Shown here piece by piece: positions 15,095-18,172 of a stretch of DNA of 64,000 bases; within the stretch, counting starts at the first letter, position 1, and each line of letters begins with the position of its first letter. Location: contig NZ_FPAS01000001.1 of the NCBI RefSeq assembly GCF_900116425.1, positions 248,001 to 312,000 of the forward strand. Reading direction: 5' to 3'. This stretch comes from Lishizhenia tianjinensis. Its GTDB lineage: Bacteria; Bacteroidota; Bacteroidia; Flavobacteriales_D; Crocinitomicaceae. Under the pieces are notes generated by a model. That model made no database searches. It saw only the letters and a program-made list of their open reading frames with translations, and was not told the origin of the DNA. The translations under genes and the position numbers were made by a program.

Positions 15095-16879
15095 ATGGCT
15101 GAAAACAAAATTTTAGAGCAGGGATCTGCTGATTTCGATTGGGAAGCTTTAGCAAATGAGGGTTACTCATTAGCACAAAAAGCAGAGTACGCTGAGACTT
15201 ACGAAGCAACTTTAACTTCTATCAACGAGAAAGAAGTTATCAAAGGAACTGTTGTTGCAGTTACTAAGAAAGAAGTTGTTGTAAACATCGGGTACAAGTC
15301 TGAGGGAGTAGTTCCTATCAACGAATTCCGTTACAACCCAGATTTAGCGGTAGGTGACGAAGTTGATATTTACGTTGAATCTCAAGAAGACAAGTACGGT
15401 CAGTTAGTAGTTTCTCACAGAACTGCACGTATGCACAGTGCTTGGGCTAAAGTGAACGAAGTATTGAAAACAGGAGAGGTTATCACTGGTTATGTTAAAT
15501 GCAGAACTAAGGGTGGTCTTATTGTTGACGTATTCGGAATCGAAGCCTTCTTACCAGGATCACAAATTGACGTTAAGCCAATTCGTGACTACGATATCTA
15601 CGTTGGTAAGAACATGGAGTTCAAAGTTGTTAAGATCAACCAAGAATTCCGTAACGTTGTTGTTTCTCACAAAGCGCTTATCGAAGCTGAGCTTGAAGAG
15701 CAGAAAAAACAAATTATCTCTGGACTTGAAAAAGGTCAGGTATTGGAAGGAACTGTTAAAAACATCACTTCATACGGTGTATTCATCGACTTGGGTGGAG
15801 TTGACGGTTTAATCCACATCACAGATTTATCTTGGGGTAGAGTTAATCACCCAGAGGAAATCGTTGAATTAGATCAAAAATTAAACGTTGTAATTCTTGA
15901 CTTCGATGATGACAAGAAGAGAATTGCATTAGGATTGAAACAATTACAACCACATCCATGGGACGCTTTATCAACTGACTTAGCTGTTGGAGATAAAGTT
16001 AAAGGGAAAGTTGTTGTATTGGCTGACTACGGTGCGTTTGTTGAAATCGCTCCAGGAGTAGAAGGTTTAATCCACGTTTCTGAAATGAGCTGGTCTCAAC
16101 ACTTGAGAACTGCACAGGATTTCTTAGCTATCGGAGACGAAGTTGAGGCTGTTATTCTTACTTTAGATAGAGAAGAAAGAAAAATGTCTCTAGGTATTAA
16201 GCAATTGATGCCAGATCCATGGGAAGGAATTGCTGAGCGTTACCCAGTTGATTCTAAGCACAACGCAAAAGTTCGTAACTTCACTAACTTCGGTGTATTC
16301 GTAGAATTAGAAGAAGGTGTTGACGGATTGATCCACATTTCTGATCTTTCTTGGCAAAAGAAAATCAAGCACCCATCTGAATTCTGTAAGGTAGGTGATG
16401 CAATGGAAGTTGTTGTATTAGAAATCGATAAAGAAAACAGAAGAATTTCTTTAGGTCACAAGCAGTTAGAAGAGAACCCATGGGATGTATTCGAAACTTT
16501 ATTCGGTGAAGGATCAGTACACCAAGGTACAATTATCGAACAAAAAGATAAGTCTGGAATCGTTGCTTTACCATACGGTGTAGAAGGAATTTGTCCTGCT
16601 AAGCACATGCGTAAAGAAGACGGATCTAACGCTAAGGTTGACGAAACTTTAGATTTCAAAGTGATCGAGTTTAACAAAGACGCTAAGAAAATTGTTGTTT
16701 CTCACGTTAGAACTTTCGAAGAAGGTGAAGACAAGCCATCTACTTCTGCAAGAGGTGGTAAGAGAAGTGGAGGAGGAAACTCTAAAGCTGTTGAGAACTT
16801 GAATAAGAGCAATGAAAAATCTACATTAGGAGATTTAGATGCATTGGCTGCTTTGAAAGATAAAATGGAAGGAAAATAA
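15095..16879 (+). CDS. rpsA: 30S ribosomal protein S1
   Basis: A 594-residue RNA-binding protein with six S1 (OB-fold) repeats, roughly residues 50-115, 130-195, 210-280, 297-368, 382-455 and 470-540. Recurrent GxVxxxxxYGVFxDLxGVDGLIHITDLSW-type cores are visible, as in SYGVFIDLGGVDGLIHI, DYGAFVEIAPGVEGLIHV and NFGVFVELEEGVDGLIHI. A basic Gly-Ser-Lys tail follows. It recruits mRNA to the 30S subunit, which matters in Bacteroidota where Shine-Dalgarno sites are scarce. Codon use is strongly biased, as for a highly expressed gene. It is monocistronic, with a strong promoter and terminator. Confidence 0.97.
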   Translation: MAENKILEQGSADFDWEALANEGYSLAQKAEYAETYEATLTSINEKEVIKGTVVAVTKKEVVVNIGYKSEGVVPINEFRYNPDLAVGDEVDIYVESQEDKYGQLVVSHRTARMHSAWAKVNEVLKTGEVITGYVKCRTKGGLIVDVFGIEAFLPGSQIDVKPIRDYDIYVGKNMEFKVVKINQEFRNVVVSHKALIEAELEEQKKQIISGLEKGQVLEGTVKNITSYGVFIDLGGVDGLIHITDLSWGRVNHPEEIVELDQKLNVVILDFDDDKKRIALGLKQLQPHPWDALSTDLAVGDKVKGKVVVLADYGAFVEIAPGVEGLIHVSEMSWSQHLRTAQDFLAIGDEVEAVILTLDREERKMSLGIKQLMPDPWEGIAERYPVDSKHNAKVRNFTNFGVFVELEEGVDGLIHISDLSWQKKIKHPSEFCKVGDAMEVVVLEIDKENRRISLGHKQLEENPWDVFETLFGEGSVHQGTIIEQKDKSGIVALPYGVEGICPAKHMRKEDGSNAKVDETLDFKVIEFNKDAKKIVVSHVRTFEEGEDKPSTSARGGKRSGGGNSKAVENLNKSNEKSTLGDLDALAALKDKMEGK

Positions 16880-16945: not shown

Positions 16946-17176
16946 TTTAAGGATTTAAGATCCACTTGCGTGGACTTTAAAGATTTAAAATAGTTTGAGT
17001 ATCACCTTGGGTAGATGAAAGAATGAGCTTTCATATTATTCAAATCAATTCATTCTCCGATTTCTTAGATGAGTAAACACGGAGGTTCAGGATGGGAGTT
17101 GAGTGGCCGTATTATAACAAAACATTTTATATTTTACTATTTCTGCTTACGCAATACCCACACTCAAAACTGACTC

Positions 17177-17563
17177 CTATTCCATAATTTTCACCGGCTT
17201 CTTGTTCTCATCTATAGCCACAAAAGTGAATTCACCACTTACGGCTTTTTCTCTTTCTTCCGTATACATTTGCTCAATGTAGATATCCACCCTTACTTTT
17301 AAACTTGTGTTTCCGGTGTAAGTTACTTTTCCTAATAATTCTATAATGGTTGCTGCAGGAATGGGCTTTTTAAAGTCAATTCTATCACTACTTACAGTAA
17401 CCATGCGCTGGCGACTAAAACGCGTAGCTGTAATAAAAGCAACCTCGTCCATCAATTGCATGGCTGTACCTCCGAATAGGGTGTCGTAATGATTCGTAGT
17501 ATTGGGAAATACCGCTTTGAATATGCGTGTTTCAGATTTTTGGATTCTTTCTTCCTTTGTCAT
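17177..17563 (-). CDS. Acyl-CoA thioesterase, hotdog fold (YciA/BFIT-like)
   Basis: A 128-residue single hotdog domain: VFPNTTNHYDTLFGGTAMQLMDEVAFI holds the conserved Asn-His and GG region with the acidic LMDEVA helix, and VSSDRIDFKKPIPA matches the acyl-CoA thioesterase family (acyl-CoA hydrolysis in the cytosol, typically hexameric). The substrate chain length is unknown. It is the first gene downstream, on the same strand, of the cobalamin riboswitch at 17754-17907, about 190 nt away, with no intervening gene. Confidence 0.88.
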   Translation of the reverse strand: MTKEERIQKSETRIFKAVFPNTTNHYDTLFGGTAMQLMDEVAFITATRFSRQRMVTVSSDRIDFKKPIPAATIIELLGKVTYTGNTSLKVRVDIYIEQMYTEEREKAVSGEFTFVAIDENKKPVKIME

Positions 17564-17753
17564 TTTATTTTCTCTTAATGTGGCGTTAAACGCCGTTGTT
17601 ACATTTTATTCGGTTCTTAACAGACCATGCTTGCGAGAAAATAAGGGAAAGGGTGTAACATGAAGAAGTGAAGATTTCACATCTCCTATAGGGATTTATT
17701 CATGTACTCAACCTGACTCATAGCTTCAAATCGCGAAAGCATCGTCAATTAGA
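17564..17753. other. Spacer between riboswitch and thioesterase gene
   Basis: No long frame. On the minus strand it holds an 11-codon frame beginning MSQVEYMN (about 17720 downwards), a GTGAA/TTCAC hairpin and a short palindrome GGCGTTTAACGCC (17583-17595) just before the thioesterase start. No strong terminator is evident, so read-through from the riboswitch into the gene is possible. Confidence 0.5.
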
Positions 17754-17907
17754 AGAGGCAGGTCTCCTGACTTATAACCCTTTAACTTCCTTCCCATTCT
17801 TATGTTTTAGAACAGTGGATAATCGTTAAAGCTTCTTTGTTACTTACAGTTGCGCGACAGTTCATGATTTACACATGATTCCCTTTTCATTTGCGTTAAG
17901 CAAAACC
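17754..17907 (-). ncRNA. Cobalamin (B12) riboswitch
   Basis: Read on the minus strand, the conserved blocks occur in order: AAAAGGGAATCATGTGTAAA, CTGTCGCGCAACTGTAA, a CCACTG arm, GAATGGGAAGG, and the terminal AGTCAGGAGACCTGCC box (17754-17768). These match the adenosylcobalamin-class aptamer core, including the GTCAGGAGACCTGCC B12 box. Such elements repress B12 uptake (btuB, TonB-dependent receptors) or synthesis genes. Here no such gene follows; the next gene on the strand is the acyl-CoA thioesterase at 17563. Confidence 0.93.
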
Positions 17908-18172
17908 TTTTCTTGTTTTAAAAAGAACTTCTGGCGGCGAAAGTAGTAAAATTATGTGGGCAAAGACGAAGATTCAAAGATTCAAGGATTCAACAATTCA
18001 AAGATTCATCCCTAGGCTTCGCGGGAGAACTTTTTATGTAAGGGTTTAAGGGTGGAATTGCACGTTCGAAGTTAAAAGTGCGGTGCATTGTCATTTTATA
18101 ACTCTCTTTTTCTTTTGGCTATCCTTACATTTGTCGCACGCTTTTCGGAACCTACAGAAAAGAATAAAGAGC
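17908..18172. other. Spacer with TTCAA repeats
   Basis: No gene is seen. A run of TTCAAAGATTCAAGGATTCA-type units at 17969-18008 matches the copies at 14.3 and 14.65 kb. A TACATTTG string (18126-18133) could be a -7 element for the 18173 gene, but no -33 is evident. Confidence 0.5.

Follow-up and report, generated by a model that had tools for sequence, protein, structure and literature searches.

Riboswitch and thioesterase gene in Lishizhenia tianjinensis

The window, a 64 kb stretch of the L. tianjinensis genome (3.56 Mb in 13 contigs), carries on its minus strand a cobalamin riboswitch aptamer and, 3' of it, a gene for a hotdog acyl-CoA thioesterase. The features of this locus are as follows.

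17938..17945 (-): possible Bacteroidota-type -7 element TACTTTCG, found by eye just 5' of the aptamer
17740..17925 (-): cobalamin riboswitch aptamer RF00174 (Rfam, 105.6 bits, E = 2.1e-25, full model 1-189)
17853..17857 (-): L5 loop bases UCGCG, predicted from the sequence to kiss L13
17757..17773 (-): conserved 3' core of the aptamer, presumably the B12 box, AAGUCAGGAGACCUGCC (Rfam match and sequence)
17723..17740 (-): P13 hairpin GCUUUCGCGAUUUGAAGC, with a loop CGCGA (17735-17731) complementary to L5 (sequence)
17634..17653 (-): putative anti-start-codon segment with core UUAUUUUCUC (17644-17635), complementary to GAGAAAAUAA at 17574-17565 just 5' of the ATG (duplex test)
17177..17563 (-): hotdog acyl-CoA thioesterase of 128 amino acids, 4HBT, ACOT7/YciA-like (ORF list, Pfam, profile against the PDB)

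The earlier note on this DNA had placed a minus-strand cobalamin aptamer at 17754-17907, to be checked with the Rfam cobalamin model, and this interval lies inside the RF00174 match, the score of which exceeds the Rfam gathering score of 31.5 bits. It is the sole Rfam match at gathering score within the 64 kb. The -7 element was assigned using TAnnTTTG, which we take to be the Bacteroidota consensus; TA-N-N-TTT-like motifs are also seen by eye 5' of the aptamer in several relatives. The term 'B12 box' is used in the accessible part of PMC2258182.

The distance from the end of the aptamer model to the ATG of the thioesterase is 176 nt. None of the listed ORFs occupies this gap, and an 18-codon ORF begins, as judged by eye, inside P13. 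The downstream neighbour encodes an S1-domain protein (15095-16879, plus strand) and is convergent, so the riboswitch unit appears to consist of a single gene, in agreement with the one thioesterase at 17563-17177 that the note had described. The upstream neighbour, a luciferase-like monooxygenase, is divergent. The note had also seen no obvious terminator, and a simple scan of 17100-18100 returned one plus-strand site and no minus-strand site; an intrinsic terminator in the thioesterase leader was therefore rejected. A Rho-type C-rich leader was rejected as well, as the composition after P13 is not consistently C over G.

The whole 3.56 Mb genome contains two RF00174 matches, and an adjacency within 200 nt on the correct strand is thus very unlikely to arise by chance (about 6e-5 per gene by our own estimate). 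Downstream of the second match (L002) are encoded a secreted DUF4465 protein and the first part of a TonB receptor (TonB plug), a locus of uptake type, so that B12 uptake is probably under a switch of its own.

The thioesterase resembles acyl-CoA hydrolases

The 4HBT match in Pfam (E = 2.6e-16, 60.1 bits) is well above the cut-off of 20.6 bits. A profile made from 12 close orthologues (A1) picks up 27 distinct PDB sequences at E ≤ 0.001, 23 of which are named acyl-CoA or acyl-coenzyme A hydrolase or thioesterase, or plain thioesterase. The closest, 2gvh and 2eis, have names of uncharacterised proteins and are followed by bacterial acyl-CoA hydrolases, ACOT7 and ACOT12. Asn24 and Asp39 are invariant across the A1 alignment and presumably correspond to the catalytic pair of the ACOT7/YciA enzymes. 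The protein thus resembles the YciA, ACOT7 and ACOT12 hotdog thioesterases in its 4HBT domain, its conserved Asn and Asp and its solved relatives (2gvh, 2eis, 5egl and 6vfy), but differs from them in its link to a B12 riboswitch and in its score against the YciA equivalog NF007970 (NCBIfam), which at 53.6 bits stays below the cut-off of 162. A search of 59 near genomes gives 12 matches, including the window, at E ≤ 8.5e-42, and the next match is a paralogue at 2e-24. None of the thioesterase paralogues in these 59 genomes was seen by eye within 10 kb of an RF00174 match.

The arrangement recurs in Bacteroidota

A cobalamin-class riboswitch lies upstream in six of the 12 close orthologues from the 59 near genomes. 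The link is direct in the window, L033, L034, L036 and L043, and a small CWC-like gene stands in between in L035.

The class was sampled evenly, with 197 genomes. With the window protein as query at E ≤ 1e-38, orthologues were obtained in 25 of them (the window genome included), a setting that misses more distant orthologues in the class, and 1.7 to 5.6 kb upstream of the thioesterase was read. Thirteen of the 25 orthologues lie behind a cobalamin-class riboswitch, one of them, G113, by virtue of an AdoCbl match that falls short of the threshold (36.6 bits where 50 are required, E = 0.0034); among the 12 unlinked genomes, G012 and G060 were scanned at a laxer threshold and the other ten at the gathering score only. 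The link is direct in G000, G070, G113, G206 and G322, and the thioesterase comes behind MetE in G184 and G333, behind NrdB or NrdB-NrdA in G075, G175, G185, G318 and G336, and behind a TonB receptor in G326. The aptamer of G175 and G336 is of the AdoCbl-II type (RF01689).

Among the best 80 orthologues of the matches listed, 50 are linked to a riboswitch, including the sub-threshold pair L179 (48.5 bits) and L181 (46.6 bits). The riboswitch lies within the 3 kb flank in 38 of them (36 at the Rfam cut-off and two below it). In these 38 loci of the best 80 listed the thioesterase follows the riboswitch directly (ten) or in the company of MetE (12), CWC (six), PAS (three), PF01902 (three), FabH (two), DUF6580-CWC-binding protein (one) or a secreted protein (one). 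Their intervening listed ORFs of at least 75 amino acids are all codirectional, the exception being an 82-residue antisense ORF that overlaps the L157 leader. Gaps between MetE and the thioesterase are up to 315 nt, and the MetE of L164 was read as two ORFs.

The remaining 12 of the best 80 listed are linked further out, as judged by position. Nine have the order MetE-FabH-thioesterase, two include PAS (L134 and L135) and the last is L141. Three of the 12 were read as sequence (L128, L134 and L141), five have a FabH copy on the same contig between the riboswitch and the thioesterase (L133, L138, L140, L168 and L171), and four rely on matching coordinates with the contig assumed (L129, L132, L135 and L153). 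The order in L134 is NrdB-like, NrdA-like, x, PAS and thioesterase, and L135 has the same distance. L141 (read as L211) runs binding protein, permease, ATPase, TonB receptor, PF01902-like, PAS and thioesterase. A check of L154, L155 and L167 for a distant link gave none. Pfam confirmed MetE, NrdB, NrdA, FabH, PF01902, CWC, PAS and the TonB plug on one or two representatives each, as well as the transport genes of L211 and L102.

Outside the class but within the phylum, the link is also seen in G161, where NrdB-NrdA-like ORFs intervene. G151 has it in direct form. Genera with the direct form include the window relatives, Chryseobacterium, Tenacibaculum and others. B12 control of the thioesterase is not universal, given the sizeable share without a link: six of the 12 near-relative orthologues, 12 of the 25 in the class and 30 of the best 80 listed, with L166 among the 30 ending at a contig end and thus unjudgeable. 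In two family relatives with an unlinked thioesterase (L062 and L063, from G005 and G026), a cobalamin riboswitch is seen by eye before class I ribonucleotide reductase-like ORFs.

Like a B12-bypass gene, the thioesterase is thus placed directly or in an operon behind cobalamin riboswitches across genomes (13 of 25 in the class and 50 of the best 80 listed). The note's heading 'not a B12 gene' has to be reworded, given that the thioesterase recurs as a B12-regulon gene in its own right.

Operon partners

The partners in riboswitch-led thioesterase operons are MetE, NrdB/NrdA, FabH, a TonB receptor, PAS, CWC and PF01902 proteins. MetE and NrdAB are the B12-independent replacements of MetH and NrdJ.

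FabH stands directly before the thioesterase in ten Pedobacter and two Flavobacterium loci, with L167 counted apart; among the best 80 listed it is found in two of the 38 flank-linked and nine of the 12 far loci. In all eight operon genomes checked at E ≤ 1e-30 (L128, L133, L138, L140, L143, L160, L168 and L171), the operonic FabH is additional to another copy. Its identity to the FabH of L160 is 61-63% in the six Pedobacter and 82-100% in the two Flavobacterium, compared with 51-54% for the other FabH copy of the same eight genomes. The window genome and G032, of its own family, have one FabH match each (54-55%).

Small Cys_rich_CWC (PF14375) genes are located between the riboswitch and the thioesterase in L102, L103, L111, L118, L119, L126, L169 and L035, identified with Pfam in L102, L118 and L169 and by similarity or eye in the rest. 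A CWC-like gene was also seen by eye in L064, a salvage-type locus. A PAS-domain protein is encoded directly 5' of the thioesterase in L104, L134, L135, L141, L154, L155, L179 and L181, in some cases with overlap, and the pair is under a cobalamin riboswitch in several of these loci, L154 and L155 not being among them. Diphthamide synthase-like PP-loop proteins (PF01902) occur in the cobalamin-riboswitch operons of L113, L120, L125 and L141/L211 (Pfam for L120, similarity for the others), and visual inspection showed PF01902-like proteins in L064 and also downstream in L169.

L5-L13 complementarity and the anti-start segment

The complementarity between L5 and L13 that is expected of RF00174 is present in the window, where UCGCG (17857-17853) faces CGCGA (17735-17731). 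Forty-six leaders were scanned by script and L5 was located in 41; the other five are L202, L186, L194, L002 and the window itself, for which the pair was read from the sequence. Among the 41, UCGCG/CGCGA is found in 20, the co-changed pair UCGUG/CACGA in three (L179, L181 and L189) and the core CGCG in the same hairpin in six. An identical, co-changed or core pair is therefore seen in 29 of the 41, and 12 have no match (L036) or one elsewhere or different (11); in L109 a TTTCGCG hairpin that the script missed is visible by eye. Taken leader by leader, none of the L5-L13 matches is significant against chance (p from 0.07 upward). Such an L5-L13 pseudoknot is described as the usual means by which AdoCbl riboswitches act in the accessible part of PMC2258182.

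In the window, the minimum free energy fold (z = -2.15) pairs 17634..17653 with the start region, and the predicted anti-start duplex has an energy of -12.2 kcal/mol compared with a mean of -7.5 for shuffled sequences (p = 0.027). Seven of 12 less redundant direct leaders, a set fixed when seven test results were already known, reach p ≤ 0.05 (combined p = 2e-4), and with near-duplicates kept the count is eight of 17 (combined p = 1.8e-5). L034, L105, L106, L189 and L196 do not reach this level, and L202, for which no P13 was obtained, was omitted. Control orthologues with no riboswitch in the locus reach it in one of 38 cases (Fisher p = 6e-5 against seven of 12), where the control is a fixed 86-nt stretch from 38 of the 42 riboswitch-less loci, those with no ATG there or with N being skipped; a more distant link exists in 12 of the 42, and in none was a riboswitch found directly 5' of the thioesterase. 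As the idea of an anti-start segment was drawn from some of the same leaders, the test is not an independent one.

The segment at 17653-17634 suggests that it is the thioesterase itself whose translation is controlled. Comparison of genomes thus bears out the note's claim that the riboswitch is aimed at this gene (13 of 25 in the class, 50 of the best 80 listed and an anti-start segment in seven of 12 direct leaders), and from these sequence comparisons the thioesterase is very probably under riboswitch control.

Acyl-CoA mutases and the methylcitrate marker

The corresponding B12-dependent enzyme, an acyl-CoA mutase (PF01642), is present in all 13 linked genomes (G000 included), in nine of the 12 unlinked ones and in 187 of the 197 class genomes overall, and the acyl-CoA mutases are the remaining widespread B12 enzymes of the class sample. 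Given the 187 of 197, presence in the linked genomes is weakly informative, and the difference in absence between linked and unlinked genomes (0/13 versus 3/12) is not significant (p = 0.096).

PrpD, the marker of the methylcitrate route, is found in 15 of the 197 class genomes. It is present in none of the 13 linked genomes compared with four of the 12 unlinked ones (p = 0.039, post hoc and uncorrected for ancestry), and three of these four have divergent thioesterases of 55-57% identity. The linked genomes thus appear to be reliant on the B12 route for propionyl-CoA. Across the class sample, PrpD occurs in nine of the ten mutase-negative genomes versus six of the 187 mutase-positive ones.

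Proposed role of the thioesterase and alternative explanations

Taken together, the MetE and NrdAB partners, the widespread mutases, the PrpD pattern and FabH make acyl-CoA relief the most likely role of the thioesterase, to which we give about an even chance. In the presence of B12 (adenosylcobalamin is the probable form), the aptamer would fold, L5 would kiss L13 and the start codon would be hidden in a hairpin with the anti-start segment. Scarcity of B12 would free the start and allow the thioesterase to be made. The AdoCbl-dependent acyl-CoA mutases would then be idle and short acyl-CoAs would accumulate, and the enzyme would hydrolyse propionyl-CoA, methylmalonyl-CoA and perhaps butyryl-CoA, isobutyryl-CoA or branched acyl-CoAs, such that CoA is recovered and the acid leaves the cell. 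A FabH using short acyl-CoAs as primers would contribute to this relief. This direction of control, in which B12 would repress the thioesterase, is suggested by analogy; the B12 riboswitches of Bacteroides thetaiotaomicron are repressed by 37 nM cyanocobalamin, according to the accessible part of PMC6143338.

The thioesterase would thus form a third B12-bypass arm beside MetE (for MetH) and NrdAB (for NrdJ). It does not do the same job as a B12 enzyme without B12, since the mutase reaction is not one that a 4HBT hydrolase would be expected to carry out, and it is perhaps bypass-like, a relief valve and not a replacement isozyme. Considered as a whole, the model in which a cobalamin riboswitch governs the translation of a dedicated thioesterase that relieves acyl-CoA at low B12 appears reasonably probable. 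The earlier note had offered propionyl-/methylmalonyl-CoA detoxification as one possible logic: the operons with MetE, NrdAB and a second FabH and the absence of PrpD from the 13 linked genomes favour it circumstantially and PF01642 is uninformative, so that it is something we infer rather than observe. A wider reading, which we put forward tentatively and at slightly less than even odds, is that Bacteroidota have an unrecognised third arm against B12 scarcity, an RNA-switched CoA-ester relief valve (joined in some lineages by an extra FabH) that guards against loss of mutase activity. Made together with MetE and NrdAB, it would be a bacterial counterpart of the excretion of methylmalonic and propionic acid in B12 deficiency.

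The note's alternative was that a btuB-like gene has been lost and that the riboswitch, its remnant, has no control over the thioesterase. A TonB-receptor gene separates the riboswitch from the thioesterase in G326 and, together with other uptake genes that precede it, in L211 (Roseivirga spongicola), and the direct form could arise from such an order by loss of the uptake gene. The note had counted relatives with a TonB-receptor gene here, together with a transcript that ends before 17563, as evidence against thioesterase control, and such receptors do exist in these two loci, but the thioesterase follows codirectionally in both. Moreover, the direct arrangement is found in several genera with the aptamer, the L5-L13 pair and often the anti-start segment retained, and the window genome has a separate riboswitch before its DUF4465 protein and TonB receptor. 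A remnant would be under no selection for a link to the gene downstream, and the recurrent link and the anti-start segments suggest that such selection exists. A remnant is therefore highly improbable.

Two further explanations accept the control but assign the enzyme another task. It may be an accessory of B12 uptake, salvage or remodelling and not an acyl-CoA relief enzyme: it is the last gene of the binding protein-permease-ATPase-TonB receptor-PF01902-PAS operon of L211, adjoins a TonB receptor in G326 and comes after a binding-protein gene in L102, and the salvage-type locus L064 contains a CWC-like gene (by eye). We regard this as quite unlikely, since the thioesterase stands alone behind the riboswitch in many genomes, its neighbours MetE, NrdAB and FabH in others handle no corrinoids, and the solved relatives hydrolyse acyl-CoA. 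Adjustment of fatty acids or the membrane at low B12, carried out with FabH and distinct from detoxification of mutase substrates, would explain the FabH directly 5' of the thioesterase in L143, L160 and the MetE-FabH-thioesterase operons, and finds a parallel in the desaturase under a cobalamin riboswitch in the part of PMC2211319 that was accessible. Most linked loci, however, were read to be free of FabH (present in two of 38 flank and nine of 12 far loci of the best 80 listed), and a primary role of this kind is unlikely. A FabH that takes propionyl-CoA or isobutyryl-CoA as primers fits acyl-CoA relief too, so that the fatty-acid and relief readings overlap.

Comparison with known systems

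The known targets of cobalamin riboswitches are mainly uptake, synthesis and B12-independent isozymes. Targets named in the accessible parts of the sources are uptake, synthesis, metE and a fatty-acid desaturase (PMC2211319), btuB, btuF, metE and nrdD (PMC8620254) and a TonB receptor in Flavobacterium psychrophilum (PMC9723704). We found no report of a B12-controlled thioesterase among the open-access papers listed, subscription papers being outside this scope. In the same way, a cobalamin riboswitch in control of a thioesterase or acyl-CoA hydrolase is not mentioned in the accessible parts of PMC9723704, PMC8620254, PMC4809877, PMC2211319, PMC9600381, PMC2258182, PMC6143338, PMC7205611, PMC4465626, PMC8216456, PMC13194489, PMC2700814, PMC2996986, PMC10599522 and PMC3953431.

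The riboswitched B12-independent isozymes (metE, nrdAB and nrdD) resemble the present system in their aptamer families (RF00174, RF01482 and RF01689), in being useful without B12 and often in sharing the operon, with MetE or NrdB/NrdA 5' of the thioesterase. They replace the reaction of the B12 enzyme, whereas the thioesterase would drain the substrate pool instead. The riboswitches of btuB and other uptake genes in Bacteroidota, one of which is present in the same genome (L002), have the aptamer family and probable translational control in common with the window but control transport, in contrast to a gene of acyl-CoA metabolism.

Caenorhabditis elegans uses a propionate shunt at low B12. There too disposal of propionyl-CoA is switched on at B12 shortage, but the shunt is controlled by transcription factors and consists of several enzymes, whereas the system of the window would be a single RNA-controlled hydrolase.

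If the model is true, the thioesterase represents another kind of riboswitch target, one that drains the substrates of idle B12 enzymes, and a gene annotated only as 'acyl-CoA thioesterase' acquires a testable function. Many environmental Bacteroidota would then be predicted to excrete propionate or methylmalonate at B12 shortage, which would connect B12 supply with carbon exchange in the community, and the CWC, PAS and PF01902 proteins would be placed in the B12 regulon.

One of the CWC-containing loci (L103, CP034120) comes from a record named Glaciecola amylolytica, a member of the Gammaproteobacteria, and contains a Fluviicola-like riboswitch-CWC-thioesterase operon. Either a wrong label on the record or transfer of the operon may account for this.
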